Shown here: positions 1 through 64,000 of the stretch, one piece after another | Position numbering within the stretch: position 1 is the stretch's first letter | How the letters are laid out: each line of letters opens with the position of its first letter | Source of the DNA: Halichondria panicea | Lineage: Eukaryota; Porifera; Demospongiae; Suberitida; Halichondriidae | Length of the DNA stretch: 64,000 nt | Assembly: GCF_963675165.1 (NCBI RefSeq) | Contig: NC_087377.1 | Coordinates: forward strand, 3,440,978-3,504,977 | Reading direction: 5' to 3' | Notes under the pieces: model-generated | Database searches by the model: none | The model's input: the letters and a program-made list of their open reading frames with translations, nothing else | Told to the model about the DNA's origin: nothing | Translations under genes and position numbers: made by a program

Positions 1-1137
1 CATCCCAGCCACAGCACAGTATAACAACACTGTTGTGCAGTGTGAGGCAGTCGTTGTAGCCGGACGAGTGTTCATACCTGAATTATCAGAAAATGCTACC
101 TTGCAAGTACAAGGTATAGTCACAAACATTACATTAATAGCTTGTTTTGTACCCGGTTCCTCTCAGGTCCTCTTTCAGCTGTCTCCAACCTTCATACTCA
201 GTCATCAAGTACCAACATCACAATCACCTGGGATGCCCCCTTCTCTCTTAACCTCACCACAGCTGAACCTGTAGTTTTACTCCTACTCTTAGTCATTGCC
301 ATTTTAACAGCTGTTGTCATAGTGAAACGAAAACTAAGGAACCATAAAGGTAAACTGTTGACAATTTTGTTTATTATATTTACTATTTCTCTTTAATTTA
401 GATGATGTTGTTGTATCAGATGGAAGATTGGATTGGTCATCAACATTGCCAGGAATTGAGTAGCCTAACGAAGCTCGTGCTCTAGTGCTCAATAAGAACA
501 TTGCTTATGAGCAGACACGGATACCAAGACACAATGAACACACCACCACCATTGTCACCAGGGCAATAATAATGAGCCTAGTCATGAGTACGTATTAGTT
601 ATTGCCCAGCCAGAGTGCAACATGCCATATATTGCACTGGATGACATAATGCCCTCGGGGCCTGCGGTCCTCGGACATTATATTGCTCCAGTGCAATATA
701 TGGCATGTTGCACGAGGGCGCCTGCAATAACTAACTTGTTGCCCAATGACGTTAAACTCGTCTGACTGGTCATATAAACCGTCATAAAAGACATGTGTTT
801 TGAAGGAATTTAGTGTATTCATTAGTTTTGCTGAATTCCATAGTAAATTTTTTAGGTTTTCTTCCCACTATAGTAGTTGTAAAGGTAGTAGCCTATAAAA
901 GGGACCAACTGAGTATAGGGTGGGATGGTGGGGCATAAGTCCCAAATGGATATCTCTTAAAGAAATGTACTACATATACACACATGCATATAATCCAGTG
1001 CATTATGCCATATAATGCAGTGCAATATATGGTAGCCATGGCAGTGATGCAACATGCCATATACTGAGCACTGGATTGCTTTGATCTGCCCACTCACTGG
1101 GAAACAAGAAGAAGTATTACCTCAGGGACATTTTTAG
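1..1137 (+). pseudogene. A1: 3' remnant of Ig/FN3 receptor, decayed
   Basis: This is the left-edge remnant of the family A receptor. Exon pieces: 1-113 encodes the end of an Ig domain (YNNTVVQCEAVV, then NATLQVQ), 167-349 encodes half an FN3 domain fused directly to the membrane exon, and 402 onward encodes the cytoplasmic tail. In intact A3 the FN3 half, a whole Ig, a second FN3 and a linker separate these parts, so a deletion has joined FN3-1 (TTAEP) to the membrane helix (VVLLLLLVIAILTAVVIV). The fused exon stays open, but the tail has an in-frame TAG at 461-463 where paralogues read CAG, and a foldback element (about 593-1106) splits the last codons. The 5' part lies outside the window. 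Pseudogene status is well supported; a short product ending at the TAG cannot be excluded. Confidence 0.85.
593..1106. mobile_element. Foldback element inserted in A1 tail exon
   Basis: Compared with A2, where GAGTACG runs straight into AAGAAGTATTACC, A1 has about 514 extra bases. The left 150 bases form a near-perfect hairpin: TTAGTTATTG near 596 pairs with CAATAACTAA near 725, and CAACATGCCATATATTGCAC (619-638) pairs with the complementary run near 690-712. The right part repeats the same CATATAATGCAGTGCAATAT words. A related fragment lies near 16045. No coding capacity is visible. Confidence 0.7.
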
Positions 1138-1330
1138 AACGATTGAACATCACTTCACATCGATTAATGTGGCAACATAAACCACATCTCGCCCTCCAAC
1201 CATAGTATAACTATAACATAAAGGTCAATTTAGTACCCTATTATTCTCAATTATGCTAGTTGCTAGAAGTTATTATTATTAGAACTATTATTCCAAAAAT
1301 TATGCTAGCATAATTTTCCAAGCGAGGGCT

Positions 1331-1555
1331 TCAATCCATAATCACTCTGTTGTCTACGACCTCAGTATCTCTCCTCCACCTCTGAGCTCTCAATGACAAA
1401 CAGTTTAGCGATATCTTTAGCTTGAGTCGTAGCTTGATTGGGTAGTCATCGTCCTTACACAACTTTTTGCGACCATTATCATAGAACACAGAGAACTTGA
1501 TCGGACATATCATTCTCAACGACAAAAGGAAAGAGGAATTAATGTTTAGTTGCAT
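1331..1555 (-). pseudogene. RASSF-like Ras-association exon, decayed copy 1
   Basis: The minus strand reads KFSVFYDNGRKKLCKDDDYP then IKLRLKL, the start of a RASSF-type Ras-association (RA) domain. The next residues go out of frame because about ten bases that encode the GPSE core in the copy at 13595-13890 are missing. The identical deletion occurs in the copy at 7267-7491, so the two share a decayed ancestor. It lies tail to tail with A1. Without that deletion no downstream stop would follow at once, so I call it a relic exon rather than a gene. Confidence 0.6.
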
Positions 1556-2302
1556 GCATGGGAAGAAGCCAATAGACGAGCTAAATGTATTACTGTCTGA
1601 TTATAATAATTATCAGACGTGGTGGAGGCCAACTGCATGGCCACTGCATGCATGTGCCGTTTGTTATGCCTCTACATACAAGAGTGTATAATTATCATAA
1701 ATGCTGCCACCAGCGCAAAAAAGTGCCCATGCATACAACTATAATTATGTCGATAGCTAATGTGGTGATATGAATGGTATTCACAGATATGTCTATCCAG
1801 GAGTACATTAATGGTCTACCTGTTTAATAGCTAGCTGTACATGCAATTGTTGCATGTCAGTATCTAGAAAATCAAGTCTGACCTTATAAAACCAGTTGTC
1901 AACAAGAAGTATACTCATTTTTAAAATTATCGAGATTTGCATTTACACCTGAACCTTTAACCTTAAAACAGTTGTCAACAAGAAGTAGTAATATAGTGTT
2001 TTTAGATTTGCATTTACACCTGAATCTTTCCAGTTGTCAACAAGAAGTATATAGGGTATCTATAAGTATAATTATAGTGCACATGGTTTCTAGAGATTTT
2101 CATTTACATCTGAGCAACAACTTTAAACCTAGTGTAGTATATTGGTTTTTAAATTGAACCTTTAACTTAAACCAGTTGTCAAAAAGAAGTACGTAGTATA
2201 TAGTGGTTTCTAGAGATTTGCATTTACATCTGAACAACAACTTTAAACCTTGTTCAAACCAGTTTGAGATTTTAGTATAAAATGCATGAACCAAGGAACA
2301 CC
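1556..2302. repeat. Spacer with a degenerate tandem repeat
   Basis: From about 1895 to 2285 a unit built from CCAGTTGTCAACAAGAAGTA, a TATAGTG stretch, TTTCTAGAGATTTGCATTTA and CACCTGAACCTTT recurs about five times at irregular spacing with internal deletions. The part before 1895 is flank shared with the region after A2 (7492-7830). No gene is seen. Confidence 0.7.
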
Positions 2303-3164
2303 ATGGACTCTGTGTTCAGAACATTGAGGAAGGAAGGTATTGGATCGGAGAAGAAAACAGCAAAGCCATTTTCGAAGGAAGAAGAGCAGCAACTTTGGTC
2401 ATCTGGAGCATTGGGTGTGCAAGACCCTGTATCACTTTAACGTGCTGTATTCTTTTCAAATGGCAAAAGTTTTTGCCTGAGAGGAGGAAACGAGCATCGT
2501 GAACCCAGTTGAAAAGAGAAGTCGGAGGCTACAGATACACTGAGAATGCATCCAAAAACCGTGCAGGTGGACTTGGCCAGTTAAAACTGCAGAACAAAAC
2601 TGTTTTCATAGCAGCAGTTCATGAAGCTGGAGAAAGATGCTATTGCTACCTACTGGATCTGTACATCAGTAAGCTTCCTAGAAAGCTATCGAAACCGACT
2701 TGTTTTACGTCCGTCCCCTCGAAAATGTCCAACTCGAATCTCAAACATGGTACACTTGTGTCCCTGTAGGAAGAAATAAACTGTACAAAATGGTGAACGA
2801 CATGTGTACTCTTGCTGGGATTCTGGGAAGAACAAATCATCGCCTCAGAGCAACAGGCGCTACTGAGCTATACAATGCTGGTGTTCCAGAGAAAATCATT
2901 AAAGAGCGAACTGGACATCGTTCTTTGGAATGTCTACGAATGTACGAGCGTACAAGTGAGAAGCAACAGAATGCCGTATCCAGAGTTTTATCTGCACAAA
3001 AAGAAACCTGTTTCAATGTGGAAATGACGAAACTGGCAGAAAACACAACGAACATTGCAACTCACTCATCTGTTCCAGTTATGAACTTCCATAACTGCCA
3101 AGTGAACATCAACCAATACAGTCACGGGTCCATCGTCGACAGTGGAGCTTCTCTCAACCATTAG
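2303..3164 (+). pseudogene. Crypton-type tyrosine recombinase (DUF3504-like), decayed
   Basis: Translation starting MDSVFRTLRKEGIGSEKKTA gives the pattern of the DUF3504/Crypton-derived proteins common in marine invertebrates: an EEEQQLWSSGALG segment, FSNGKSFCLRGGNEHR, YTENASKNRAGGLGQLK, then VPVGRNKLYKMVNDMC and the C-terminal block NHRLRATGATELYNAGVPEK, RTGHRSLECLRMYER. The last block carries the HxxR, GH and tyrosine signature of tyrosine recombinases. There is an in-frame TAA at 2438-2440 (codon 46), a second break near 2510 and a frameshift near 2700, so it is a relic. A TATA-rich 3' flank (3165-3320, with CAATAAA at 3233) is repeated at 43300-43520, which marks it as part of a dispersed element. 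Assignment rests on remembered family patterns, not on a search. Confidence 0.75.
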
Positions 3165-3433
3165 TTATGTTATTACGTTACTGGACTAGCTCTTATAATT
3201 ATTTTGTTATTACTGTCATGCATTGTAAATCACAATAAACTGTTAATGTTGTAGTTTGTAGCCCAGATATTACTATAGCTCATAGTTCCCTGCTAAATAC
3301 ACTCAAATGGGATCTAATAGAAATAGAGCACATAGCAACAATAAGCAAAAACACTCTAAAACTATGGTATAATGCGTTTTGCAAACCACTCCACAATTCT
3401 ATCACTGAATGCTGAATGCTATGATTATAATTA

Positions 3434-3453
3434 TGTTTAGTTAATGATCTTTA
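3434..3453 (+). promoter_or_regulatory. Conserved upstream box of A genes
   Basis: TTTAGTTAATGATCTTTA lies about 75 bp before the A2 start codon. The same or nearly the same box precedes A4 (35079-35098) and A6 (58874-58893), with weaker versions before A3 (10420-10440, GGTTAACGATCTTTA) and A5 (37808-37826). Conservation may only reflect recent duplication. A promoter role is inference. Confidence 0.4.
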
Positions 3454-4002
3454 CTAGAATCTAGGTGATGGCGGTTAGATTCCCAGCAATCATAATTCTC
3501 TTGATGGCAACTAAACTAAAAGTAATGGACCTGAGATGGCTCATTCTTTCAACAGCTCTTGTGGCATCTATACAAGGTTGGTCTCTCATAGTCAAACTCA
3601 GTGCATTGTGTTTTTATGTGTTTGCAACTCATGATCAGTTCACAGTAGGACCAGTGCCAGTGGTACAGGCCCAGGGGCTGAATGCAGTGTTTGAGTGTCG
3701 GTATCCTGGAGCACTAAATTACAATTGGAGGTTCAATGGATACTTTCCTATATACTGACAATAGCTACCCACCTAATGTGACTGTTATTCCACCATCTAG
3801 TGACACCCCAGCAAAAATGATCATCCCAGCCACAGGCCTGTACAATAATACTGTTGTTCAGTGTTTGATAGTGGTTATAGTGGAAGGAGAGTTCGTTAGT
3901 GAACTGCATGCATATATCAGAAAATGCTACCTTGCAAGTACAAGGTAACCATAATCTGTCATTAACTATAATTATACCATAATAATGTATAATAATAACT
4001 AT

Positions 4003-4176
4003 ATTGGCGTAGGAAGTGGGGTGGTTCCAGGGGCTGGAGCCACCCCTTGTTGGAGAGCACTGTTTAGCTTAAATTGTTGGTTAGTTTAGCTACAGCATGC
4101 TGGCTGAGGCCAGCTAGCTATTAAATAATTACGTGATTATTATACCTCGGTGCGCATGCGCAGCGAGGTATACGGT

Positions 4177-4210
<34 letters not shown>

Positions 4211-5284
4211 CTGCTACAGCTGCATGCTCAAGGATCAATGAAGTGCAAGTAAGAGTTTCTATAGGCTTCTATAGTCAAGTTTTCTTGGATTTTAATTTGT
4301 GGATTTGCAAAATAATACTTTGTTCTTGAGTTATGCTTAGTTTTGCTTACTTGGAATGCCATTGCAGCCTTTTCAGAAGAGCACGTAGCCATTAATTTTA
4401 GACTTGAACTTTTGGCATCGATCGTTTTACAACATTCATGGTTGATCATTACCCACTCTTTGATCATTACCCACTCTTTGAGTTTTGCATGCAGCAACAT
4501 TTGTGTGTGTAATGCAAAAATGTTCATCATGTGTATAAATTAATTATGCCTCGGTGCGCATGCGCAAGCGAGGTATACGGTAGTGTGTTTGTGTGTCTGT
4601 ACTGTATGTGTGTGTGTGTCTGTGTGTGTAGACTGCTACAGCTGCTCAAGGATGAATCAAGTGCAAGTAAGAGTTTCTATAGGCTTCTAGTCATGTTTTC
4701 TTGGATTTTAATTCGTGGATTTGCAAAATAATGCTTTGTTCTCGAGTTATGCCTAGTTTTGCTTACTTGGAATGCCATTGCAGCCTTTTCAGAAGAGCAC
4801 GTAGCCAAACTTGTTTACCGAGTGTTACTACTCTACTTAGTAGTTAGCTCTGCACTAGAACGCTAGCTATTGGTAGCTGCAAGAGTGAGAAGAGAGCTGC
4901 AAGGCTCTGCTGATGGCAGCCATTAATTTTAGACTTGAACTTTTGGCATCGATCGTTTTTAACAACAATCATAGTCGATCATTACCCACTCTTTGAGTTT
5001 GCAAAAAAAAAATAAGCTATTAGTAGCTTTATGTTATGTAGCTTTGGCATCTCCACCGAGGCATCAGCACCTAGCTGCGGTGCTTTCGGCATTTCAATGA
5101 TGGGCTATAGGTTTCAAAAGTAAAGTGCAAAGTGATAGATCTACCACGGAGATAATGATTGATCTATGAACCTATATAGTCTCAAAGTCCAGCCTCTTTC
5201 AGTCTTTGCAAGAATACGAAGATTTAGGAGGGCGTGGCCAGACTACTATGAACCCCCCTTGTAAAAAATCTTCCTACGCCTCTG
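4003..5284. mobile_element. Composite insertion in A2 intron, hAT-like ends
   Basis: The left end TGGCGTAGGAAG (about 4005) is the inverse of the right end CTTCCTACGCCTCTG (5270-5284); the flanks share CTATAT. Other copies of the gene lack it. Inside are two related repeat units starting GCCTCGGTGCGCATGCGC (about 4146 and 4547), each followed by a TG-rich run and then GACTGCTACAGCTG, AAGAGTTTCTATAGGCTTCT, a TTTTCTTGGATTTTAATT block and GGAATGCCATTGCAGCC. The same unit, inverted, makes the right end of the insertion in B2 at 49002-49850. No protein is recognisable. Confidence 0.65.
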
Positions 5285-6337
5285 CTATATAAGTGTAACT
5301 ATATACAACTACCCCTTCTATATAATTATATACAGGTCCTCTTTCAGCTGTCTCCAACCTCCGTGCTCATTCATCAAGCACAACTATCACAATCACCTGG
5401 GATGCCCCCTTCTCTCTAGACCTCACCACAGCTGAACCAGACATACAGTATTGTGTGGATGTGTACGATAGTGCCACTGGTGTTCTACTACACTCTGAGT
5501 GTGGTATTATTGAGGAACGCTACACCTATTCCCCTAGCAACCCCTGCTCGTATATGTTCACAGTAACACCTAGGAGCAATTTAGATGGAGCTCTCAATGG
5601 GACCACTTTGTTCAGATGTATACAAGATGGTAAGAATGTGACTTTGTACTAAATTGAGTAAGTTTGAGTTGGCTAATTGATTTCTCAACCACATGCACTC
5701 AAATACAGCACAGTCTCAGAACTTCACAATTCAGCCAGTATCAGTGATACAAGCTAAAGGCCTGAAGGCAGTGTTTGAGTGTTTGTACCCTGGTGCCCTG
5801 AGTCACAGATGGGGGATCAATGGAACGTACCCAGCTGATGATGCGTTTCCACCTGATGTAACTCGTACCCTACCGTCTGGTGATACTCCAGCAAGACTGG
5901 CCATTCCATCAACAGACCAGTACAACAACACTGTGGTGCAGTGTAGGGCTGTGCTTGATGCGGGAGGAGATGCGCAGTTTGTGCAAACATGTGATGCTTT
6001 GTTGTTAGTACAAGGTATCCTGCTATCATTATTATGAGCTTTACATTATAACACTTCAGGTCCACTGGGCTCTGTTACTGGACTGAGACTGGACATGGTG
6101 ACCTCTACTTCAGTGACTCTCATCTGGGATGCTCCCTTCTCCCTAGACCTCACCACAGCTGAGCCAGACATACAATATTGTGTGGATATGCACAGTGTCC
6201 CTATAGAGGACAATTGATGGAGTCAACATGTGACATCATCGACACTAACTACACTTTCTCTACCAGTGATCAAGACCAGTTAGTATTTACAGTGACACCA
6301 AGAAGTAATGTGGAGGGTAGTCTCAATGGAACCTCCA

Positions 6338-6466
6338 CACTGTAAAAAAAAAAGTGCGGTGAGCACACTAAAACCGTCGCATATAGCACACTTTTTCAAA
6401 AAAGCGTGCTATATGCGACGGTTTTAGTGTGTCCACCGCACTTTTTTTCAATCATTTTTTACAGTG
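6338..6466. mobile_element. CACTG-ended MITE in A2 FN3-2 exon
   Basis: A 129-bp near-palindrome with ends CACTGTAAAAAA and TTTTTTACAGTG. The empty site in A3, A4 and A6 reads CCTCCAGTGAAC; here CA is duplicated on both sides (6336-6337, 6467-6468). The arms contain AGTGCGGTG..CACACTAAAACCGTCGCA and its complement. The ends resemble CACTA/Chapaev-type termini, but a 2-bp duplication is short for those groups, so the superfamily is left open. Confidence 0.85.
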
Positions 6467-7266
6467 CAGTGAACTAGTCGGACCTCCTTCGCAAGGTAAA
6501 TGGTCTGTGTACCAAGCATTATCTATTATAGTTATGTAGTACCACTCTCTTCACAGCTAACGACACAATTACTGACATCTCACCATCGTCATCTCTTCCT
6601 GAGTCTATTCAACAACCCTCTATTTATACAATAGCAGGTGAGTAATAAAATATGCTAAGCAGGCTTAACTGTCGTATGATTGGCTGTTTATACCCTATAA
6701 TTATGTTATACAGTGTCTTCAGGTGTGACTGCTGTGGTAGTTCTACTCCTACTCTTATTCATCGCCATTTTAACAGCTGTTGTCATAGTGAAACGAAAAC
6801 AAAGGAACCACAAAGGTAAATGTTGACAATTTTATTTATTGTTTTTATTAATTTAGGTGATGTTGTTGTATCAGATGGAAGAGTGGATTTATCATCAACA
6901 TTGCCAGGAATTGAGCAGCCTAACGAAGCTTATGCTCCAGTGCTCAATAAGAACATTGCTTATGAGCAGACACAGATACCAAGACACAATGAACACACCA
7001 CCACCATTGTCACCACGGTAGTAGCAATGGATAATATTGAGCCTAGTCATGAGTACGAAGAAGTATTACCTCAGGGACATTTTTAGAACGATTGAACATC
7101 ACTTCACATCAATGTGGCAACATAAACTACACCTCGCCCTCGAATCATAGTATAACTAAGGTCAAATTATGCTAATTTAGTATCTCAATTATGCTAGTTG
7201 CTAGAAGTCTCCCTATTATTCCAAAAATTATGCTAGCATAATTTGCCAAGCCCTATAGTGGGGGCT

Positions 7267-7491
7267 TCAATCCATAATCACTCTGTTGTCTACGACCTCA
7301 GTATCTCTCCTCCACCTCTGAGCTCTCAATGACAAACAGTTTAGCGATATCTTTAGCTTAAGTCGTAGCTTGATTGGGTAGTCATCGTCCTTACACAACT
7401 CCTTGCGGCCATTGCCATAGAATACAGAGAACTTGATCGGACATATCATTCTCAACGACAAAAGGAAAGAGGAATTAATGTTTAGGTGCAT
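7267..7491 (-). pseudogene. RASSF-like Ras-association exon, decayed copy 2
   Basis: Minus-strand twin of the relic at 1331-1555, about 95 percent identical by eye (KFSVFYGNGRKELCKDDDYP), including the shared ten-base deletion of the GPSE core. It sits downstream of and opposed to A2. The shared deletion shows that the A gene and its antisense neighbour were duplicated together. Confidence 0.6.
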
Positions 7492-7836
7492 GGGAAGAAG
7501 CCAATAGATGAGCTAAATGTATTACTATCTGATTATCAGACGTGGTGGAGGCCAACTGCATGGCCACTGCATGCATGTACCGTTGGTTATGCCTCTACAT
7601 ACAAGAGTGTATACCAGTAGGTATCATAAATGCTGCCAGCTAAAAAAAATTTGCCCATGCATGCAACTATATGTACGATAGCTAACGTGGTGATATGAAA
7701 ATGGTATTCACAGATATAATTATGTCTATCCAGAAGTACATTAATTGTCTATCTGTTAGCTAGCTGTACATGCAATTGTTGCATGTCAGTATCTACAAAA
7801 TTGCCTCGAAGTCTGACCTTATAAACACATGTCAAC

Positions 7837-8585
7837 CAGAGGAGGGAGGACACGATTAACCTTAGGCCACTCCAAGTGATACTCTGGTTTCTGGTCCACC
7901 GCCCGCATCAGATTTTATTCTTGGATTTCTATCTCATTATTGGATTTCTATCCCATTATTTCTACTACGCATGCGCATAATGGTTCATGCGGTACAAAAT
8001 AGTGTGATAATGATATTCATTTGCAAAATAATGAGTTCATAAGGTGAAATTGATAATGACATAATGAGAAAAGCCGCCCGCCCGCATGCAATTAGAAAAA
8101 CTTCAGGACCAGAAACCAGAGTGTCACTTGGAGTGGCCTTAGCTATAATTAGCTAACTCTGAACTAAACAATTCCATGTTGCAGCTTTATCACAGAGACA
8201 GGAGTGCCTAGCCTGGGGTGCTTCTCACAGGGATCTTGGAGACAGGAGTGCCTGGGGTGCTCCTCATAGGGATCCTGTCTCCAGGATCAAGAGTGCTTCT
8301 CACAGAGACAAGATCAGAGTGCCTGGGATGCTTCTCACAGGGATTTTAGAGATAGGAGTACTTGAGGTGCTTCTTATAGGGGTCCTATTTATAATTACCT
8401 TCAGGTCCTGACAACTTGGCCATAGGGGTACCTCCAGTAGGAGAAAAGGCTTACTTTGCTCTAGCTCTTGTGTCCAATATGTAGAGGTTATAAAGAAAGA
8501 AAAGATGAATCGTTCAAAGAATGTCATTAAAAGGTCGCGAAATTAGCTAATTAGAGCTAAGGTTAATCGTGTCCTCCCTCCTCTG
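7837..8585. mobile_element. Nested foldback elements between A2 and A3
   Basis: Outer ends are CAGAGGAGGGAGGACACGAT (7837) and the complementary ATCGTGTCCTCCCTCCTCTG (8566-8585), both followed inward by TAACCTTAG. An inner element, about 7864-8141, has ends GGCCACTCCAAGTGATACTC and its complement. A further copy of the inner family is at 9894-10184. The remaining 8180-8395 holds four degenerate copies of GACAGGAGTGCCTGGGGTGC plus TTCTCACAGGGATC. Confidence 0.75.
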
Positions 8586-8802
8586 ATCTCTACCCAAATT
8601 CTGGTAGAGACAGAAGCTGTAGCCCAGAGTCACCAGTCCCTTTTCTCCCGGGGGGCCCGTCCAATCAGAGAAAAGGGAGTGGCTTGCGAGTCTAGCTAGC
8701 TAGCCTGGCTTGCCCCCCCCCCCCCATTTCCTCTCATGTAGAGCTAGAGTTTAAAGGTCACCAACTACCTACTAAAGCTAAATAGGTAAGCCGGCCAACT
8801 AC

Positions 8803-9869
8803 TAGCCTCGAGACCAGGCCGATTACAATACGGCCTGGTCTCTAGGCCCTGGCAAATTATGCCGGTATAATTTGGGGCATAATAGGTTAGATCATTATAC
8901 TGGCATAATTGGAGCATAATAGGCTTAAAATTGTGAATTTGGTCAGCTTGGTGCAAATGCAACGGTCCTCTGCTGTTGCTGAACGTAATTTTTCTCTTTT
9001 AAATGCTTCTTTACATCTAGAAGATTATGTTGAATTTTCAGTTATGTTATAAATGTGCAATACAAGAGATAATTTTTTTTACTACTACTGCTGAAAAAAG
9101 GACGTCAATGTGGGGCATAATGGGTTCTTTCCACAAGCATAATAGGCTGAATTTGGGGTAGTGCTCAAAAGCATAATAGGCAGAAAAAAGAGCATAATTT
9201 GCCAGGGCCTATACTGGTCTCTATCAGAGGAGGTACGACAGGCGCGGTGCACCTCAAGTAATTAGCCTTTGATTGAGCAATAATTATCCGCCCACTCCCC
9301 GCCCACGTCGAATGTTTTTGCTGTGAGTAATCAGAGGCTAATTACTTTAGCTGCACCGCGCCTGTCGTACCTCCTCTGGGTCTCTATTGCATAGTTAATT
9401 AATCATAGGCGTGGTCCATACACGCCCATGTACTATCTAGCTAGCTAGCTGTGGCCCTCTATGGTGTTGTCGAGAAGGCTTGCACACTAGTCTGAAACCA
9501 GAAGAGGCTCTCATCTACCTCTATGATGGTTGGATGGTCGTGCTGTTTTGAACTTGGTTTCTATACAAATGAGAGCTTTTTCTGGCTTCAGACTAGTGTG
9601 CAAGCTTTCTTGACAACACCATAGAGGGCCACAGCCTTCTCGACAACGCAATAGAGAGCATAAGCCACAGCTTCACAGGAGACAAGTATTTGTTTAAAAT
9701 TAATACAGAAAGAAACTAGTAAACAAACTAGTTTACGGTATAATTTTACAAAGGTTTACTATAAAGTATACGAGTTACCCAGATTCTGGGTAACTCAGTT
9801 TGCGCATGTGCACTATCACCCATGCAATAGAGACCAGGCCGTATTTTAATCGGCGTGGTCTCGAGGCTA
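8803..9869. mobile_element. MULE-like element, 9-bp target duplication
   Basis: A 1,067-bp element whose 40-bp ends, TAGCCTCGAGACCAGGCCGA and its near-exact complement, are flanked by identical 9-bp repeats GCCAACTAC at 8794-8802 and 9870-9878. Inside lie a hairpin with ends AGGCCCTGGCAAATTATGCC (8841-9211), a MITE at 9225-9378 and another foldback at 9449-9636 (ends TGTGGCCCTCTATGGTGTTG). Nine-base duplications are typical of the Mutator superfamily. No transposase is seen, so it is non-autonomous. Confidence 0.8.
9225..9378. mobile_element. CAGAGGAGGTACGAC MITE, 9-bp duplication
   Basis: 154-bp foldback with ends CAGAGGAGGTACGACAGGCG and complement, flanked by GGTCTCTAT at 9216-9224 and 9379-9387. 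Other members are at 19273-19418, 20541-20685 and 22299-22623. It is nested in the MULE-like element 8803-9869. Confidence 0.85.
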
Positions 9870-9893
9870 GCCAACTACCTACTTCGAAAGCTA

Positions 9894-10184
9894 AGGCCAC
9901 TCCAAATGAGACTGTAGTTTCCCGTCCAACTCGCGCTTCCTGCTTTAGCTACCTCATTGATAGTCATTATGGCCATTATTTCTCTAATTATCAATGAAAT
10001 ATTGAAATTACTTTTTTCTTGTTCTTTGTTGCCTCTAAGCACATGGTTGGCTGAATTTTTGTGGCTAATTAATTAAATTCATTGATGACGGAACAATAAT
10101 ATTTATAATTATGTGTAATGAATAATGATTTATAATTTACTGGAGTCTCTGACGGGAAACTACAGTCTCATTTGGAGTGGCCTA
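9894..10184. mobile_element. GGCCACTCCAA foldback MITE
   Basis: Ends GGCCACTCCAAATGAGACTG and TAGTTTCCCGTC (left) and their complement (right) enclose about 220 bp of AT-rich sequence. Same family as the inner element at 7864-8141. Confidence 0.75.
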
Positions 10185-10469
10185 AATAGCTAAGCCAACT
10201 ACCTACTTCAAAAACTAAATAGCTAAGATAAATAATTTATTGAACTACCTACTTCGAAAGCTAAGTAGGTAAGCCAACTACCTACTTAGAACGTCAACTG
10301 CAAGTAGCTCTCAGGGCCACCGTAGATCTGTAAGCACTTATTAGGAAGGTGCGTGTATAAACAATTCAAGTGATATAGCACAACTAGCATGCATGATTCA
10401 ACATAATTTTAATTATCATGGTTAACGATCTTTATTGTGCCACAAAGGCGCATGCCTATAGCTATTGAG

Positions 10470-12507
10470 ATGGAACTGAGATGGCTCTTTCTATCAACAG
10501 CTCTTGTATCTATAGAAGGTTGGTTTGTGTTGAGTCAGTGGGTTGTGTTTCTGTCTATGCTATATGTTTGCAGCTCAGTTCGCAGTACAACCAATGTCAG
10601 TGGTACAGGCCCAGGGGATAGATGCAGTGTTTGAGTGTCGGTATCCTGGAGCACAAAGTTACAATTGGGGGCTCAATGGAGACTTTCCTACACACAATAA
10701 CCTCCCACCTGATGTAACTATTATCCTACCATCTGGTGATATCCCAACAAAACTAATCATAGCCACAGGGCAGCATAATAACACTGTGGTGCAGTGTGAG
10801 GCAGTGGTTAGAGACGGACGAGTGTTCATACCTGAATTATCAGTAAATGCTACCTTGCAAGTACAAGGTAGTCACAACCAACATTAAATAGCTTGTTTTG
10901 TACCCTGTTCCTCTCAGGTCCTCTTTCAGCTGTCTCCAACCTCCGTGCTCAGTCATCAAGCACCAACATCACAATCACCTGGGATGCTCCCTTCTCTCTT
11001 AACCTCACCACAGCTGAACCAGACATACAGTATTGTGTGGATGTGTACGATAGTGTCACTGGTGTTCTACTACACTCTGAGTGTGGTATTATTGAGGAAC
11101 GCTACACCTATTCCCCTAGCAACCCCTGCTCGACGTACGCATTGTTTGTGACACCTAGGAGTAATCTTGACGGAGCTCTCAATGGAAGCATTGGTAAGTA
11201 GACTTATTGAAATGTGTGAGTGGCTCAATGAAATCACAATCTAACACAGCACGGTTTCAGGAATTCACAGTGCGGCCAGTATCAGTGATACAAGCTGAAG
11301 GCCTGAAGGCAGTGTTTGAGTGTTTGTACCCTGGTGCCCTAGGTCACAGTTGGGGGATCAATGGAATGTACCCAGCTGATGATGCGTTTCCACCTGATTT
11401 AACTCGTACCCTACCTTCTGGTGATACCCCGGCAACACTGGCCATCCCAGCGACAGGCCAGTACAACAACACTGTGGTGCAGTGTAGGGCTGTGCTTGAT
11501 GTGGGAGGAGATGCGCAGTTTGTGCAAACATGTGATGCTCTGTTGTTAGTACAAGGTATCCGATTAATATAGCTATCATTATAATAGCTTTACATTATAA
11601 CATTTCAGGTCCATTGGGTTCTGTTACTGGACTGAGACTGGACATGGTGACCTCTACTTCAGTGACTCTCACCTGGGATGCCCCCTTCTCTCTAGACCTC
11701 ACCACAGCTGAGCCAGACATACAGCATTGTGTGGATGTGCACAGTGTCCCTAGAGGACAACTGGTGGAGTCAACATGTGACATCATCGACACTAACTACA
11801 CTTTCTCTATCAGTGATCAAGGCCAGTTAGTGTTTACAGTGACACCAAGAAGTAATGTGGAGGGTAGTCTCAATGGAACCTCCAGTGAACTAGTCGGACC
11901 TCCTTTGCAAGGTAATTAAATTGGTTTGTGTACCAAGCAGGATAGCCACATAATACTATCTAGTCAATCTCTCCCACCCCCTCTCCTCACAGCTAACGGA
12001 ACAATCACTGGCGGCCCTGCTATTGAGTCTGCTCAACAACAGTTTAAAATAGCAGGTGAGTAATAAAATACGTTAAACAAGCTTAATTTAGTATGCTTTG
12101 TGTATAATTATTGTCTTTCCCATGCAGTGTCTTCAGGTGTGACTGCTGTGGTAGTTTTACTCCTACTCTTAGTCATTGCCATTTTAACAGCTGTTGTCAT
12201 AGTGAAACGAAAACAAAGGAACCACAAAGGTAAACTGTTGACAAATTTGTTTCTATTTCTTTTTAATTTAGATGATGTTGTTGTATCAGATGGAAGAGTG
12301 GATTTGTCATCAACATTGCCAAAAATTGAGCAGCCTAACGAAGCTTATGCTCCAGTGCTCAATAAGAACATTGCCTATGAGCAGACACGGATACCAAGAC
12401 ACAATGAACACACCACCACCATCGTCACCACGGTAGTAGCAATGGAGGATGAGAACACTGAGCCAAGTCATGAGTACGAAGAAGTATTACCTCAGGAACA
12501 CGATTGA
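10470..12507 (+). CDS. A3: intact Ig-FN3-Ig-FN3 single-pass receptor
   Basis: The only family A copy with no visible lesion. Exons: 10470-10518, 10574-10867, 10918-11193, 11250-11555, 11609-11911, 11993-12055, 12128-12229, 12272-12507; total 1,629 nt, 542 aa. Signal peptide 1-16 (MELRWLFLSTALVSIE); Ig1 17-114 with FEC and VVQC cysteines; FN3-1 115-206 with ITWDAPFSLNLTT and an extra QYC/SEC pair; Ig2 207-308; FN3-2 309-409; polar linker to 430; membrane helix about 436-456, then KRKQRNHK; tail with three tyrosines in YAPV, YEQT and YEEV. Every internal intron is phase 1, so each domain is a portable cassette. The start was chosen because MELRW aligns with MDLRW and MDVRW in paralogues; in-frame upstream ATGs exist at 10437 and 10452. 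The last intron is only 42 nt and is itself open in frame. Likely a cell-surface adhesion or recognition receptor; ligand unknown. Confidence 0.88.
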
Positions 12508-15417: not shown

Positions 15418-34698
<19,281 letters not shown>

Positions 34699-35128: not shown

Positions 35129-37164
35129 ATGGATGTGAGATGGCTCATTCTTTCAATAACTCTTGTGGCATCTATACAAGGTTTGTCTGTGCATGAGGAG
35201 TCAGTGCATTATGTTTCTATGTGGTATACATGTATTATATAAGCAGCTCAGTTCACAATACAACCAGTGTCAGTGGTACAGGCCCAAGGGCTGAATGCAG
35301 TGTTTGAGTGTCGGCATCCTGGAGCACAATATCGCAATTGGAGATTCAATGGAGAGTTTCCTACTGACGATAGCTATCCACCTAATGTGACTTTTACCCT
35401 ACCATCAGGAACACTGACCATCCCAACCACAGGCCAGTACAACAACACTGTTGTGCAGTGTGAGGCAGTGGTTAGAGACGGACGAGTGTTCATGTCTGAA
35501 TTATCAGTAAATGCTACCTTGCAAGTACAAGGTAGTCACAAACATTAAATAGCTTGTTTTTGTACCCAGTTCCTCAGGTCTTCTTTCATGCAGCTGTCTC
35601 CAACCTCCATGTTCAGTCATCAAGCACCAACATCACAATCACCTGGGATACCCCCTTCTCTCTTAACCTCACCACAGCTGAACCAGACATACTGTATTGT
35701 GTGGATGTGTACGATAGTGCCACTGGTGTTCTACTACACTCTGAGTGTGGTATTATTGAGGAACGCTACACCTATTCCCCTAGCAACCCCTGCTCGATGT
35801 ATGCGTTGTTAGTGACACCTAGGAGTAATCTTGACGGAGCTCTCAATGGAAGCATTGGTAAGTAGACTTATTGAAATGTGTGAATGGCTCAATGATTCCA
35901 TGATAACAATCTAACACAGCACGGTCTCAGGGATTCACAGTGCGGCCAGTATCAGTGATACAAGCTAAAGGTCTGAAGGCAGTGTTTGAGTGTTTGTACC
36001 CTGGTGCCCTGAGTCACAGTTGGGGGATCAATGGAATGGAGACAGCTGATGATGCGTTTCCACCTGATGTAACTCGTACTCTACCGTCTGGTGATACTCC
36101 AGCAAGACTGGCCATTCCATCAACAGACGAGTACAACAACACTGTGGTGCAGTGTAGGGCAGTGCTTGATGTGGGAGGAGATGCGCATTTTGTGCAAATA
36201 ATTATGTGATGCTCTGTTGTTAGTACAAGGTATCCTTGATAGCTATAATTATAGCTTTACACAATTTTTTTATGCACTTTAGGTCCACTGGTTCTATTAC
36301 TGGACTGAGACTGGACATGGTGACCTCTACTTCAGTGACTCTCACCTGGGATGCTCCCTTCTCTCTAGACCTCACCACAGCTGAGCCAGACATACAGTAT
36401 TGTGTGGATGTGCACAGTGTCCCTGGAGGACAACTGGTGGAGTCAACATGTGACATCATCGACACTAACTACACTTTCTCTACCAGTGATCAAGACCAGT
36501 TAGTATTTACAGTGACACCAAGAAGCAATGTGGAGGGCAGTCTCAATGGAACCTCCAGTGAACTAGTCGGACCTCCTTCGCAAGGTAAATGGTCTGTGTA
36601 CCAAGCATTATCTATTATAGTTATGTAGTACCACTCTCTTCACAGCTAACGACACGATTACTGACATCTCACCATCGTCATCTCTTCCTGAGTCTATTCA
36701 ACCACCCTCTATTTATACAATAGCAGGTGAGTAATAAAATATGCTAAGCAGGCTTAACTGTCGTATGATTGGCTGTATAATTATGTTATACAGTGTCTTC
36801 AGGTGTGACTGCTGTGGTAGTTCTACTCCTACTCTTAGTCATTGCCATTTTAACAGCTGTTGTCATAGTGAAACGAAAACAAAGGAACCACAAAGGTAAC
36901 TGTTGACAATTTTGTTTATTGTATTTACTATTACTCTTTAATTTAGGTGATGTTGTTGTATCAGATGGAAGAGTGGATTTGTCATCAACATTGCCAGGAA
37001 TTGAGCAGCCTAACGAAGCTTATGCTTTAGTGCTCAATAAGAACATTGCTTATGAGCAGACACGGATACCAAGACACAATGAACACACCACCACCATCGT
37101 CACCACGGCAATAGCAATAGAAAATATTGAGCCAAGTCATGAATACGAAGAAGTATTGCTCTAA
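35129..37164 (+). pseudogene. A4: Ig/FN3 receptor, two frameshifts
   Basis: Exons 35129-35180, 35247-35531, 35594-35857, 35920-36229, 36283-36584, 36646-36726, 36794-36895, 36947-37164. Signal peptide, Ig1, FN3-1, membrane helix and tail (YALV, YEQT, YEEV) are open. Ig2 is broken near 36199, where CAAACATGTGATG has become CAAATAATTATGTGATG, giving an immediate TGA. FN3-2 lacks one G near 36291 (CTGGTTCT for CTGGGTTCT). FN3-1 carries a 4-bp insertion just after the old acceptor, but the new CATGCAG acceptor at 35593 would restore the frame and remove only GPLS. Ig1 also lacks about six residues (SGTLTIP for SGDIPTKLIIA). Either a recent pseudogene or one hit by assembly errors. Confidence 0.75.
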
Positions 37165-37886: not shown

Positions 37887-38899
37887 ATGGAACTGAGATG
37901 GCTCCAGCTCTTGTATCTATAGAAGATTGGTTCTGGTTTGGTTGGAAGGTTTGTGTTGAGTTCAGTGGATTGTGTTTCTGTCTATATGTATGCCGTATTA
38001 TAATTATGTTTGCAGCTCAGTTCGCAGTACAACCAATGTCAGTGGTACAGGCCCAGGGGATAGATGCAGTGTTTGAGTGTCGGTACCCTGGAGCACAAAG
38101 TTACAAATGTGTGCCGGCTCAATGGAGAGTTTCCTACACATGATAATTTCCCACCTGATGTAACTGTTATCTTACCGTCTGGTGATATCCCAACAAAACT
38201 GATCATAGCCACAGGCCAGTGCAACAACACTGTTGTGCAGTGTGAGGCAGTAGTTAGAGACGGACGAGCTAGTGTTCATACCTGAATTATCAGTAAATTC
38301 TACCTTGCAAGTACAAGGTATATAATCACAAATTAAACACATTAATAATGTGTTTACCCCCGTTCTTCAGGTCCTCTTTCAGCTGTCTCCAACCTCCATG
38401 CTCAGTCATCAAGCACCAACATCACAATCACCTGGGATGCTCCCTTCTCTCTTAACCTCACCACAGCTGAACCAGACATACAGTATTGTGTGGATGTGTA
38501 CGATAGTGCCTCTGGTGTTCTACTACACTCTGAGTGTGGTACTATTGAGGAACGCTACACCTATTCCCCTAGCAACCCTATACTCAACGTATGCAGACAT
38601 ACAGTATTGTGTGAATCGATGCATGTATATACAGTGTCCTTGGAGGACAATGAAGCAATGTGGATTCAATGGAACCTTAAATTCACAGCAGTGAACTAGT
38701 TGGACTTCTTTGCAAGGTGATTAAAATGGTCTGTATGCCAAGCCGTATATATATAATTATGGCTACAGTCATGATAATAATTATTTAGTCAATCTCACTT
38801 ACCACGTCTCCTCACAGCTAATGGCATCACGATTGACAGCTCACCATCGTCTAGGCTATACTAACGAGTCTACTCAACCAACCTCTATTACAATAGCAG
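37887..38899 (+). pseudogene. A5: chimeric, truncated Ig/FN3 receptor
   Basis: Degenerate family A copy. The signal-peptide exon has lost 11 bp, reads into a TAG, and its donor GG/GTT has become GATT. Ig1 (38016-38317) has a frameshift at 38106 (AAATGTGTGCC for ATTGGGG). The FN3 exon (38371-38716) begins as FN3-1 and then, at a second ACATACAGTATTGTGTG, continues as FN3-2 (near VYTVSLEDN), so Ig2 has been deleted by recombination between the two FN3 exons. The linker exon (38818-38899) remains; membrane and tail exons are gone, and B2 begins 280 bp later. Confidence 0.85.
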
Positions 38900-39178
38900 G
38901 TGAGAATAATTATACTCTCTCAAACTAATACTATAATAGTGAAACAGTGATAAGGAAATTTGGGCATAAATTTAGCACAAGCTTGATATTTGTAAGTCCT
39001 ATGTATAAGTGTTGTTAGTGAGCTAGTTTACTCCCTCAAAAATGCTGCAAGTCAGGGGGTTCTTTAATTTCTCATAAACCCCCTTGTAGATCTACTCTGC
39101 ACGTTACCAAATAAAGTCATTTACTAAAAGTTCTATGTATATAACAGCTAGCTAAACTCAGGGACCATTTCTCTTGCA

Positions 39179-58507
<19,329 letters not shown>

Positions 58508-58951
58508 ACCATTAATTTACAGTATTTTGGTGACACTATAATTAGTATGCTGCTGAACTTTTAGCTTTGTTTTGTCTTCTAGACTTATTATTGTCCATGT
58601 CCCCCTGCGGCTCTACTATTAATAAATAAATAGAGCTGGTATAAACGCCATTAGTGCAAACTTTCGTATGAATTTCGATTATTTTCTGTTCTATTCGTAT
58701 ACAGCTCAGAATCTCTGGCTCAGAATAGCGATGTACACATGTAGAAGCTATTGCACATTGTACTGCTTAATTTTCTTATTCAGAGTTAATGCCTAAATAT
58801 CCACCATAAGAAAATAACCCGCTATATAGATCTAGTACACACTGACAGTCAATCAATATCACTGAATGATACATGTTTAGTTAATGATCTTTACATCTCT
58901 ACATTTACGGGGTAATACATTCTAGTTCTCTTGATTGCCACTAAAAGCGAT

Positions 58952-60924
58952 ATGGACGTGAGATGGCTCATTCTTTCAACAACTCTTGTGGCATCTATAC
59001 AAGGTTTGTCTGTGAGGAGTCAGTGTATTATGTTTCTATGTGGTATACATGTTTGCAGCTCAGTTTGCAGTACAACCAGTGTCAGTGGTACAGGCCCAGG
59101 GGATAGATGCAGTGTTTGAGTGTCAGTATTCTGGAGCACAAAGTTACAATTGGGGGATCAATGGAGAGTTTCCTACTGAGGATAACTACCCACCTGATGT
59201 GACTGTTACCCCATCGTCTGGTGATATCCCAGCAACACTGACCATCCCAACCACAACAGAGTACAATAACACTGTGGTGCAGTGTGAGGCAGTGGTTAGA
59301 GACGGAAGAGTGTTCATACCTGAATTATCAGTACATGCTACCTTGCAAGTACAAGGTAGTCACAACCAACATTAAATAACTTGTTTTTGAACCCAGTTCC
59401 TCTCAGGTCCTCTTTCAGCTGTCTCCAACCTCCGTGCTCAGTCATCAAGCACCAACATCACAATCACCTGGGATGCTCCCTTCTCTCTTAACCTCACCAC
59501 AGCTGAACCAGACATACAGTATTGTGTGGATGTGTACGATAGTGTCACTGGTGTTCTACTACACTCTGAGTGTGGTATTATTGAGGAACATTACACCTAT
59601 TCCCCTAGCAACCCCTGCTCGATGTATTGCATTGTTGGTGACACCTAGGAGCAATCTTGACGGAGCTCTCAATGGAAGCATTGGTAAGTAGACTTATTGA
59701 AATGTGTGAGTGGCTAAATGATATCACAATCTAACACAGCACGGTTTCAGGGATTTTCAGTGCAGCCAGTATCAGTGATACAAGCTGAAGGCCTGGAGGC
59801 AGTGTTTGAGTGTTTGTACCCTGGAGCAACCGCTTATAGTTGGGGACTCGATAGAATATACCCACCTGCTGATGCGTTTCCACCTGATCTAACTCGTACC
59901 CCACCGTCTGGTAATACTCCAGCAAGACTTTCTATCCCATCGACAGGGCAATACAACAGCACTGTGGTGCAGTGTAGGGCTGTGCTTGATGTGGGAGGAG
60001 ATGCACAGTTTGTGCAAACATGTGATGCTCTGTTGTTAGTACAAGGTATCCTTATTGGAATGATAACTAGCTTTTACATTTTATGCTTTGAGCACTTCAG
60101 GTCCACTGGGTTCTGTTACTGGACTGAGACTAGACATGGTGACCTCTACTTCAGTGACTCTCACCTGGGATGCCCCCTTCTCTCTAGACCTCACCACAGC
60201 TGAGCCAGACACACAGTATTGTGTGGATGTGCACAGTGTTCCTGGAAGACAACTGGTGGAGTCAACATGTGACATCATCGACACTAATAACACTTTCTCT
60301 ACCAGTGATCAAGACCAGTTAGTATTTACAGTGACACCAAGAAGTAATGTGGAGGGTAGTCTCAATGGAACCTCCAGTGAACTAGTCGGACCTCCTTCGC
60401 AAGGTAAATGGTCTGTGTACCAAGCATTATCTATTATAGTTATGTAGTACCACTCTCTTCACAGCTAACGACACGATTACTGACATCTCACCATCGTCAT
60501 CTCTTCCTGAGTCTATTCAACCACCCTCTATTTATACAGTAGCAGGTGAGTAATAAAGTATGCTAAGCAGGCTTAACTGTATAGTATGATTGGCTGTTTA
60601 TACCCTGTAATTATGTTATACAGTGTCTTCAGGTGTGACAGCTGCGGTAGTTCTACTCCTACTCTTAGTTATCGCCATTTTAACAGCTGTTGTCATAGTG
60701 AAACGAAAACAAAGGAACCACAAAGGTAAACTGTTGATAATTAATTTTGTTTATTGTATTTACTATTTCTCTTTAATTTAGGTGATGTTGTTGTATCAGA
60801 TGGAAGAATGGATTTGTCATCAACATTGCCAGGAATTGAGCAGCCTAACGAAGCTCATGCTCCAGTGCTCAATAAGAACATTGTCTATGAGCAGACACGG
60901 ATACCAAGACACAATGCACGGTAG
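58952..60924 (+). pseudogene. A6: Ig/FN3 receptor, frameshift and shortened tail
   Basis: Exons 58952-59003, 59059-59355, 59407-59683, 59740-60045, 60101-60403, 60465-60545, 60624-60725, 60782-60924. Signal peptide (MDVRWLILSTTLVASIQ), Ig1, Ig2, FN3-2 and membrane helix are open. FN3-1 has one extra T near 59628 (TGTATTGCATTG), leading to a TAG at 59647. In the tail 22 bp are missing after CACAATG, giving NAR and a stop, so YAPV and YEQT remain but the last YEEV is lost; YEEV codons persist out of frame at 60960. If the single T is a sequencing error this would be a receptor with a short tail. Confidence 0.72.
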
Positions 60925-61284
60925 TAGCAATGGAGGATAGGAACACTGAGCCAAGTCATGAGTACGAAGAAGTATTATCTCAGGGACATTTTTAGAATGA
61001 TTGAGCGTCACCTCACATTATTACATAATGTAGTTGTCCCAAATACACGTAAAATAAATTGTGGTTACATTAGTGTTGTTATTTTTTCGAGAAGTTCGAT
61101 AATTATACTGCTTAATTGAACCATGACAACCGTGCCTCGTTCACACACTCAGTATTCAACGTGAGAAGTTTAATTGGGCCTGAAGCAATCATTGATTTAA
61201 GCAAACCTTTCAATTGAGCTATATGAAATAGGTACAAAGTGCACCCTTTATCACAAATAATTATTACACAACAACTGTACTCTA

Positions 61285-61415
61285 AGTGCTAAGTGTCTGT
61301 GAACTATTCAGTGCATCTTTAACCTCTCCTCTCCAGTGACCAAACCTGTGCACACAATAATTATACACTGATAAAGTTTCCACTATACAAGGCTCGGCTT
61401 TCTTACTACTGTATA
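61285..61415 (-). pseudogene. RASSF-like last exon fragment after A6
   Basis: Minus-strand match to the last exon of the RASSF-like copy (12774-12992): the segment coding for VHRFGRWRGEVKDALN and the stop is kept with small indels, then similarity ends at about 61415. The whole flank 60990-61415 parallels 12510-12900, so A3 and A6 shared a duplicated downstream block. Confidence 0.55.
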
Positions 61416-61854
61416 CATTAATGTGAGAAATATTTGATCATTATAAAATTATTATTGTGTAGGGGAATGATTGGTGCATGGTCGTTTATAATAATTATAA
61501 CAGCAAAAAATTGTTATAGTATAGGCAATCGCTTAGCAATGAAAAACATCAACCGTTGTTGGCTATAAGGTCTGGCAAACATAAGTGGATAGTTTATCTA
61601 ACATATGCAACGTCATGCATGATCTGACGTTGTATTGAAACACACAGTTTTGTACCCATTTGAGCTATTAATAGGCCCAGGGTACCTTTTTGGTTAGTGA
61701 TGATCAATGGAACTCAAGCAAATTCGTCAGCTAAAGTCTACTTGTTTTACACATGCATGCATTGCTATGTCTATAACATTAGAATACTTATACTTGCAGA
61801 GATAAACGATGCTACATTTTTACATTTTAAGTTCACCTAAACGGTTTCCCACTA

Positions 61855-62130
61855 ATAACTACACTTTCTCTACCATTGATCAAGACCATGCAGTGGGTGT
61901 TTACAGTGACACCAAGAAGTAATGTGGAGGGTAGTCTCAATGGAACCTCCAGCAGTGACACCAATAGTGAAAGTCGGACTATCTTTTGAAGTGGTTAATT
62001 CCAACTATGTTGCTAGCCTTTCTACACAATTGTTATCATACAGTAATGGATGTATTGCTATCAACATGTTGCTATAGCTTTCTACATGTGTAAACATGAA
62101 AGGTGGCTTAGCTAACACCTCCACACAACA
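61855..62130 (+). pseudogene. Fragment of family A FN3-2 exon, copy 2
   Basis: ACTAATAACTACACTTTCTC through GTCTCAATGGAACCTCCAGC, then the same non-coding continuation as the fragment at 13975-14260 (ATTCCAACTATGTTGCTA, CAACATGTTG, AACATGAAAGGTGGCTTA). It keeps about 35 bp more of the exon at its 5' side than the other copy. Confidence 0.7.
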
Positions 62131-62961
62131 CATGCATGCACACTCTATATAATTATATAGTCCAGAACAAAGGGAATGAACTACTTTATCATAATTGTAG
62201 TCTTAATTCCTGACAGTGCATGGTGTTAGGGTGCATCCCTTCATAGAATCCAATTGCCATGGTGACAAGTCCTCTGTTGTTACATATAACTATGAATGTT
62301 TTTTTTCTTCTCAATCTCCTTTACAACTAGATCTAGATCTATAGAACAAATAAGAGATTATTTGTTTTAATAAAATCATGCAATGTCTATAATTACATCA
62401 AAATTTTGTGCAATAATTGAAATAATTATGTATACTGTTGTACTAGACAAGAATACTATTATAGGGGCAGTGCTCGAAAGCATAATTATAATTATATAAT
62501 AGTATAAGGTCCTATACTCTAAAGAATGTCACTGCATGCATGACTGTTTGAGTATAATAATTTATTATATAATTATATAATAGTATAAGGTCCTATACTC
62601 TAAAGAATGTCACTGCATGACTGTTTGAGTATAATAATTATAATAGTCAAGAGCCAATACAATGTGTGATAGGTGTCTCGTAATATTCACCCTGCATGAT
62701 GTCTTAAATCACGTCATGCATGTGCACCGGTATACAAACCGAGCATTAACAAAAAACAAAGCTGTCAACTATAAATAATTTAGCTTGAAACCCATAATTT
62801 AATGACTCATAATAATTGCTCCCCCTCAATATAAGGGGGTTCAAAAACATTGGAATTTATCATATACCCCCTTGTATATAGCTATATAGCTATTAAACAG
62901 CTACGTATAATATTATAGTCTCTAAAACATTAAACGCGCTGCAGGAGACTGTTCTCTTGCA
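62130..62961. repeat. Spacer before B3 with a 75-bp tandem duplication
   Basis: A unit with ATAGTATAAGGTCCTATACT, CTAAAGAATGTCACTGCATG and GACTGTTTGAGTATAATAAT occurs twice in a row (about 62500-62567 and 62577-62640). The B upstream block is at 62818-62875. No gene is seen. Confidence 0.6.
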
Positions 62962-63049
62962 ATGAAGTTTCTTATAGCTGTGGCTCTGTTGGTTGTTGGA
63001 CTCTCCCCTGGCCCAGGCTCAGGACAGACCAGTGAGGCACCAACTGATG
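62962..63049 (+). CDS. B3: first exon of a third mucin-like receptor
   Basis: MKFLIAVALLVVGLSPGPGS and GQTSEAPTDG, ending in a GTAAG donor in the same phase as B1 and B2. It is identical to the B2 signal peptide for the first 13 residues. The next exon is expected about 2 to 5 kb further right, outside the window, so only this exon is supported here. Confidence 0.75.
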
Positions 63050-64000
63050 GTAAGTCCACAAGAGAAGGTAAATTTGTTATGAGCCGGGCACCTGCACCCC
63101 TGTTGTACTACTATAGACCTATTGTTCTACCTATAGTAAATCTATAATTATGTATATAATTATAGTATTATTTTACCCGTGCACTATTTATATTTTTGTT
63201 ATACGTAGAGAGTCTGCATATGGTTTTGATGTCTCTGATCGCAAACCTATAATTATACCGTATTACTAGGATATTTTGCTAGTGAAAACCTTTGTGAATG
63301 AGCCAAATCAGCAGAAAATTTGATCCTTTGCGTTCTAACTATTGCGTTCTGGCAAGGATCGTGTGTATTTACTATAGTAATAATTTAGGTTTTGCGGATT
63401 TTATTGTTGCGAATTGATCAACCATCGCGAAGTTCGCAAATGTTTGATGCTCGCAAAACCTTCTAGTAATATGCTTTTGTATGCATCCAATTTGATCACT
63501 TAGACATATCTGCATGCGTGGCGTATTAAAAAATGCAGAGACACAAAGTCTATAATTATAGTGGGCTATAACCACAAAGCCATACAACATTCGATTTTCA
63601 GTAGCAGCTTAATAAAAATTATGGAATTACCATAATTATTAAAATGACCAAACTAGGCTGCTTTCCATTTGCAAGAACTGCAGTTCAAATATACACACTG
63701 AGTTAGACACTCTTTCTCCCTATTTATGGGCTCCTGACTAAATACATTCAAGGTTCGCAGAAAAATAGTCCCCTCCAGACCATTGATTGAATGTCAAATC
63801 AATTTGGCAGAAAATAATTATGGCCCTGCCCTGCAAAAAATGTTTCACCAAAGTTTTATAGAACATGATTATATTCTACTGGGCCATTAGGATGAAGGTA
63901 GTGAGCGCGTAATTCTCTCTAACATCCTTTCAGTCTACTGTTGGATTGTCTATTAATTAGCACTTGCTTGATTATAAGCGGTTTTTATTTAAGCGCATGC
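63050..64000 (+). other. Start of B3 intron 1 (to the window edge)
   Basis: AT-rich. 63230-63480 repeats words also found in B2 (ACCGTATTACT, GTGAAAACCTTTGTGAAT, AGCCAAATCAGCAG; compare 46240-46310). The last 60 bases (ATTATAAGCGGTTTTTATTT, AAGCGCATGC) resemble the element at 16587-17040. No coding sequence was recognised. Confidence 0.5.

Follow-up and report, generated by a model that had tools for sequence, protein, structure and literature searches.

Two interleaved families of surface receptors form a large, recombining complex in the sponge Halichondria panicea

Sponges tell self from nonself, and no receptor locus is named for this discrimination in the literature searched, as far as the accessible portions of it go. 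Does a tandem array of membrane receptors in Halichondria panicea supply a candidate? A stretch of 64,000 nucleotides (C1:3440978-3504977, C1 being contig NC_087377.1; hereafter the window), from a genome assembly of 131.46 Mb in 39 contigs, was characterized. A previous reading of its letters (the original prediction) had placed two membrane-receptor families, A and B, in the plus-strand order A1, A2, A3, B1, A4, A5, B2, A6, B3. Self-blastn, exon tblastn and a self-trained gene finder agreed on this order, with all nine genes on the plus strand, and intact models of A3 and B1 confirmed the existence of the two families. The other five A copies in the window were damaged, and a coding exon of B2 carried an insertion. 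We scanned the window together with 100 kb on each side (the 264 kb region) by tblastn with exon queries. This region held 16 A copies and nine B copies, broken ones being counted and smaller fragments left out. The window is thus a slice of a larger receptor complex on one chromosome. We conclude that this complex is real, large and recombining, and that family B presents a variable tip on a constant stalk. We favour, with moderate confidence, the view that the window is part of a complex of single-pass surface receptors recognising other cells or microbes.

B1 (15418..34698, + strand) was intact, with 27 exons encoding ∼2,112 residues, open throughout. Its splice sites were GT/GC-AG with one exception: exon 3 ends at 24053, 18 bases short of an in-phase GT. 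Exon 1 (15418..15781) encodes a signal-like start and a Thr-rich repeat, in which a 36-bp unit recurs 7.6 times (15507-15779), in keeping with the repeat expansion originally proposed. The N-terminal variable domain (17689..18480) matched nothing in Pfam above cut-off and no sequence in the PDB, and its structural model consisted of beta-rich modules at low confidence. Exon B04 (25043..25357) has a conserved framework around a hypervariable middle and weak evidence of an Ig-like (immunoglobulin-like) fold. This N-terminal half without Pfam matches is joined to a MUC4-like stalk. The stalk comprises a NIDO domain (75.5 bits; cut-off 25) and an AMOP-position segment (26401..27817), VWD (50.6 bits; cut-off 22.9) followed by C8-3_MUC4 (34 bits; cut-off 25) at 28251..29365, EGF-type exons with EGF families over the Pfam cut-off (30668..33153), and a membrane span, hydrophobic by inspection, with a short tail (34175..34698). 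The VWD domain matched solved FCGBP, mucin and VWF chains. Of the domains foreseen for B, NIDO, VWD and EGF were therefore recovered; Ig had only the weak fold evidence of B04, and AMOP was not called in B1 by Pfam (E 0.05). A Cys-rich CPC...CCYG...GAL segment, whose motif we take to be that of AMOP, sits at its position.

Where does the diversity among B copies lie? Ratios of nonsynonymous to synonymous divergence (dN/dS) were estimated from the seven full B copies, with 95% bootstrap intervals. The N-terminal domain gave 0.59 (0.48–0.72) at a synonymous divergence (dS) of 0.357, and exon B04 gave 0.63 (0.43–0.89) at a dS of 0.321. Values were 0.32 (dS 0.201) for exons B05–B09, 0.17 (0.12–0.23; dS 0.122) for the VWD block and 0.31 (dS 0.114) from the EGF exons to the membrane span. 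Outer domains thus combine a dN/dS of 0.59–0.63, as compared with 0.17–0.32 in the stalk, with a synonymous divergence about three times that of the VWD block, confirming that copy diversity in B is concentrated in its outer domains. Within B04, 44 invariant positions frame the variable middle (seven sequences, two of them identical), which reached a dN/dS of 0.91 (0.57–1.46), as compared with 0.40 and 0.50 in the flanks. In family A the values were 0.75 for Ig1, 0.58 for Ig2, 0.54 for FN1, 0.61 for FN2 and 0.60 for the tail; residues 16–35 of Ig1 had a dN of 0.148 and a dS of 0.053, a ratio of 2.8 with a bootstrap lower bound of 0.99. The dN/dS pattern points to diversifying selection, short of proof.

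Comparison of B1, B2 and B4 revealed how outer ends and stalks have been combined. B1 and B4 differed at a dS of 0.004 in the outer block and 0.084 in the EGF-tail part, while B1 and B2 differed at 0.347 and 0.017, respectively. Among 527 informative sites in the three copies, the best break separated a part with 94% B1=B4 sites from one with 20%; the maximum chi-square at the break was 275, as compared with a largest value of 17.7 in 500 shuffles. The chimerism proposed among the copies is therefore real. Because the outer part of B1 matches B4 while its stalk matches B2, either the genes have traded outer ends or conversion has evened out their stalks. A stretch running from A3 into B1 was 88–98.5% alike to one running from an A gene into B4, the sign of neighbouring A and B units having been duplicated together at ∼3.44–3.70 Mb. 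Turnover by duplication, deletion and exchange, as originally suggested, is thus supported.

Across the genome, for which all match counts are lower bounds, the B N-terminal domain was found at at least 23 loci, all on C1: 16 at 3.23–3.78 Mb, two at 4.56–4.60 Mb and five at 1.09–1.16 Mb (leaving aside a weak match on C6 at E 5e-4 and 26% identity). The A FN1 exon gave at least 40 matches, all on C1, 35 of them at 3.44–3.70 Mb, and the A tail query found at least 19 loci on C1 around the window. A second array of at least 48 A-type tails lies ∼3 Mb off, on both strands, at 6.90–7.76 Mb of C1; these were 37–75% identical to the query, mostly 50–66%. Of the 48, 40 were preceded on their own strand by an A-type Ig exon no more than 4 kb away, mostly at 2.1–2.6 kb; in 1,000 random placements the mean was 6.4 and the highest count 15. 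Some of these tail matches may derive from a single gene. Further A tail matches occurred on C2 and at 8.72 Mb. Separately, six A-type Ig exon matches (59–74% identical) were seen on C8 at 4.48–4.53 Mb, with no A tail among the matches listed there.

The two families had been described as paired receptors. The pairing found no support, because each family also stands alone on C1. Seven of the 16 B loci in the main cluster, those at 3.23–3.42 Mb, precede the first A gene, and the sole trace of A among them is an FN3 remnant at -20.4 kb relative to the window. No A match was among those listed at 1.1 and 4.6 Mb of C1, where B stands, and no B match among those listed in the A-tail array at 6.90–7.76 Mb. 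Interleaving of A and B is confined to ∼3.44–3.70 Mb.

What kind of receptor is A? A3 (10470..12507, + strand) was intact, with 542 residues, no internal stop and eight exons (10470-10518, 10574-10867, 10918-11193, 11250-11555, 11609-11911, 11993-12055, 12128-12229 and 12272-12507). They encode, in order, a signal-like start, Ig, FN3, Ig, FN3, a linker, a membrane span and a tail, the start, span and tail being assigned by inspection. The family profile matched titin Ig at E 4.2e-6, with further titin chains at E 0.028–0.31, and Pfam Ig_3 was found in 14 of 41 family members (best E 0.0019), A3's own exon giving no match in that scan. The fn3 match scored 20.1 bits, under the Pfam cut-off of 25, with FN3 chains at E 0.026 and 0.087. 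The earlier description of A as an Ig/FN3 receptor with a tyrosine-containing tail therefore holds for its Ig domains and tail, while its FN3 domains stay below cut-off. The A3 tail (12272..12507) contains NIAYEQT and EYEEVL. In all 13 tails aligned (of 15 copies, two short ones being left out) the tyrosines of NIAYEQT and [ED]YE[EK][VI]L were both kept; at a third position five copies had Y and eight had H. The second motif, we presume, resembles Src-type SH2 sites.

Variation beyond this genome was sought in the protein database, where the B N-terminal domain formed 49 clusters, A Ig1 formed 43 and the AMOP-position exon formed 10. Compared with the genome's own 23 loci, 14 of the 49 were at least 97% identical, five were at 90–97% and 30 were below 90% (14, 3 and 32, respectively, when two fragmentary own loci were left out). 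Many database variants thus have no counterpart among the genome's own copies. When 45 database clusters and 21 own copies were placed in one tree, the two sets were interleaved, and one group of eight had no own member. This suggests polymorphism.

Taken together, these results suggest how the complex might work. In B a variable outer half, made of the N-terminal domain and the Ig-like exon, sits on a conserved MUC4-like stalk; in A the rod-like Ig-FN3-Ig-FN3 ectodomain leads to a tail in which two tyrosines are fixed. Joint duplication of adjacent A and B genes, together with exchange, would place old, diverged outer ends on a more uniform stalk. The outer domains may have their ligands on neighbouring cells, on larvae or on microbes, and SH2-type adaptors may dock on the A tail tyrosines. 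Several observations weigh against recognition by diversified receptors. In no whole domain of A or B did dN/dS exceed 1, and for the two stretches with the highest ratios, residues 16–35 of A Ig1 and the middle of B04, the bootstrap interval includes 1. The short B tail is not tightly held (dN/dS 0.46, 0.24–0.88; 0.67 over 14 copies), and the contrast between outer domains and tail in A is weak. Damage affects half of the A copies: eight of the 16 in the 264 kb region passed an exon test (no stop, frameshift or missing exon), and inside the window only A3 did. The A tail motifs are, to our understanding, not canonical immunoreceptor tyrosine-based inhibitory or activating motifs (ITIM or ITAM). 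Clustering at 90% identity tends to give more database clusters for fast exons. Seven of the 10 AMOP-position database matches were only 48–86% identical to the copies within the 264 kb region, the only copies with which they were compared; because these matches also differ, the database variants cannot separate alleles from sister species.

Recognition nevertheless is our best reading, and the present evidence does not distinguish allorecognition from recognition of microbes, each of which is possible but unlikely taken singly. That the complex might decide fusion or rejection between sponges, as the Hydractinia Alr genes do, is favoured by its large tandem array of immunoglobulin-superfamily receptors, with recombination and outer-domain diversity. 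Its two arrays on one chromosome contain at least 67 A tail matches, as compared with the 41 Alr family members that PMC11999971 places inside the Hydractinia complex. Self/nonself discrimination of remarkable specificity is described for sponges in PMC5450542, whose main text contains neither 'immunoglobulin' nor 'locus', and the parallel with Hydractinia is one of layout only. The most specific form of this idea is that C1 carries a sponge allorecognition complex of two families, in which old outer-domain lineages were shuffled onto shared stalks by recombination between germline genes; it counts 19 A tails and 16 B N-terminal loci near the window and up to 48 A-type genes in the further array, and we consider it rather improbable as it stands. 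Filter-feeding cells might instead use A and B to sort food, pathogens and symbionts. An arms race with microbes fits a receptor set of many copies whose ends diversify over conserved stalks; tandem immune families such as the sea urchin 185/333 genes diversify alike, and in vertebrates stalks of the MUC4 type face outer epithelia. Allorecognition fits these genomic data just as well.

A third possibility, which we regard as unlikely to the same degree, is that the array, prone to recombination, consists of ordinary genes for adhesion or the glycocalyx whose outer ends evolve under relaxed constraint. A dN/dS below 1 in every whole domain, the weak contrast in A, the many damaged copies, the mobile elements and the long CA runs are all consistent with it. 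Relaxed constraint alone, however, does not yield a three-fold higher outer dS, which conversion of the stalks could, nor a conserved framework around the variable core of B04, and the B stalk is under strong constraint. That haplotype copies were joined end to end in the assembly is very unlikely. The outer parts of B1 and B4 are indeed 98.5% identical over ∼11 kb, but identity drops to 92–95%, then 86%, within and past the gene, and other pairs of full B copies have a dS of 0.157–0.427 in the outer block. In addition, the 264 kb region contains no N, and the window proteins P0027, P0056, P0069, P0087 and P0102 are listed on a contig of 1,012,132 bases.

The remaining copies in the window, all on the plus strand, are in various states of decay. 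A1 (1..609, beginning at -298 outside the window) has Ig1, a cut FN3, a membrane span and a tail, and is damaged by stops and by the fusion of its FN3 to the span. In A1, at 167-349, FN3 and membrane span are joined in one frame with nothing between them, a structure resembling a receptor shortened by deletion. A2 (3525..7086) retains all seven exon types and is pseudogene-like, with frameshifts in Ig1 and FN2; A4 (35129..37158) has a stop in Ig2; A5 (38006..38909) is a fragment with a broken Ig1 and a partial FN1; and A6 (58952..60989) has frameshifts in FN1 and the tail, an FN2 damage flag near it stemming from a separate fragment at 61.9 kb. Domain deletion and pseudogenes had been predicted among the copies, and the fusion in A1 and the lesions of A2, A4 and A6 bear this out. 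B2 (39152..58507), whose start was placed through an open reading frame alike to B1 exon 1, has the B1 exon complement, with exon 8 split by a repeated element of ∼843 bp (49003..49845). A copy of the element, 96% identical, is found at locus L020 (+149329 to +150186 in window coordinates), and shorter matches were seen elsewhere in the 264 kb region. B3 begins with its first exon at 62962..64000 and reaches +80508 outside the window, all its exons being matched. The nine genes are thus those predicted, with A1 starting 298 bases 5' of the window and B3 lying mostly past its end. Two further differences among B copies were seen. Exon B05 (25521-26201 in the window) is a single exon in B1, B3 and Be and appears split in Ba, Bc, B2 and B4, which may reflect intron gain, loss or retention. 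A run of 215 CA units lies in a B2 intron (50995-51424); the corresponding run in B1 (28172-28249) has 39.

Among gene models of at least 100 residues in the window, the sole one belonging to neither family was a tyrosine-recombinase fragment (2682-3161); three more open reading frames of at least 120 residues outside A and B had no Pfam match. The claimed lack of a housekeeping gene between copies thus holds for models of this size, below which short exons could escape detection. The fragment (+ strand) and another at L005:5627-6767 (+ strand) matched Phage_integrase and DUF3504, with QRICH1 in L005, and are probably Crypton-like mobile elements. A collagen-like gene (25.5 bits; cut-off 27.2) lies at L018:5223-6029 (+ strand) among the downstream A genes, with a broken second copy at L017:2032-2874 (+ strand), making a third family in the array. 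Elsewhere in the genome, tandem silicatein-like genes with a Ser active-site motif were found on C2 at 655–668 kb, their exons 43–95% identical to a silicatein query. The Ser-for-Cys motif CGASYAF occurred at three places within this cluster and a related CGSSYAF on C6; neither the reversed-motif control for the CGASYAF search nor the TCN spelling of the motif gave a match. The silicatein genes and motifs lend good support to an origin from a siliceous demosponge, in agreement with the original prediction of a sponge.

How does the complex compare with known systems? No description of such a sponge locus, or of a MUC4-like stalk kept constant while the outer half above it is exchanged, was found in the literature searched, a search that for the locus left most subscription journals outside. 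The complex is a mapped, testable candidate for recognising self, kin or microbes, with named exons that can be scored in individuals, and so bears on a long-standing gap in sponge biology. It resembles the sea urchin 185/333 and similar families in tandem copies, repeats and segmental duplication; their proteins are presumably unrelated to A and B. The sponge aggregation factor is likewise a candidate for sponge self-recognition and shares VWD with B. B, in contrast, ends in a membrane span, and B1 has no Calx-beta match (Pfam, E 0.05), nor did one lie at 3.2–3.8 Mb of C1 among the listed part of 151 matches (150 of 645 candidates scored). The Hydractinia Alr complex is alike in being a large family of linked immunoglobulin-superfamily membrane receptors (here at least 19 and 48 A tails on C1). 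It differs in that a second, MUC4-like family is interleaved here and that the A ectodomain is Ig-FN3-Ig-FN3, the likeness being one of layout. With MUC4-like membrane mucins B shares NIDO, VWD, C8-3_MUC4, EGF, a membrane span and a Thr-rich N-terminal repeat. Unlike them, it stands in many tandem copies, has no AMOP call and is extended N-terminally by a half that contains a variable domain and Ig-like exons, so that in B a MUC4-like stalk serves as the constant part beneath an interchangeable outer half.

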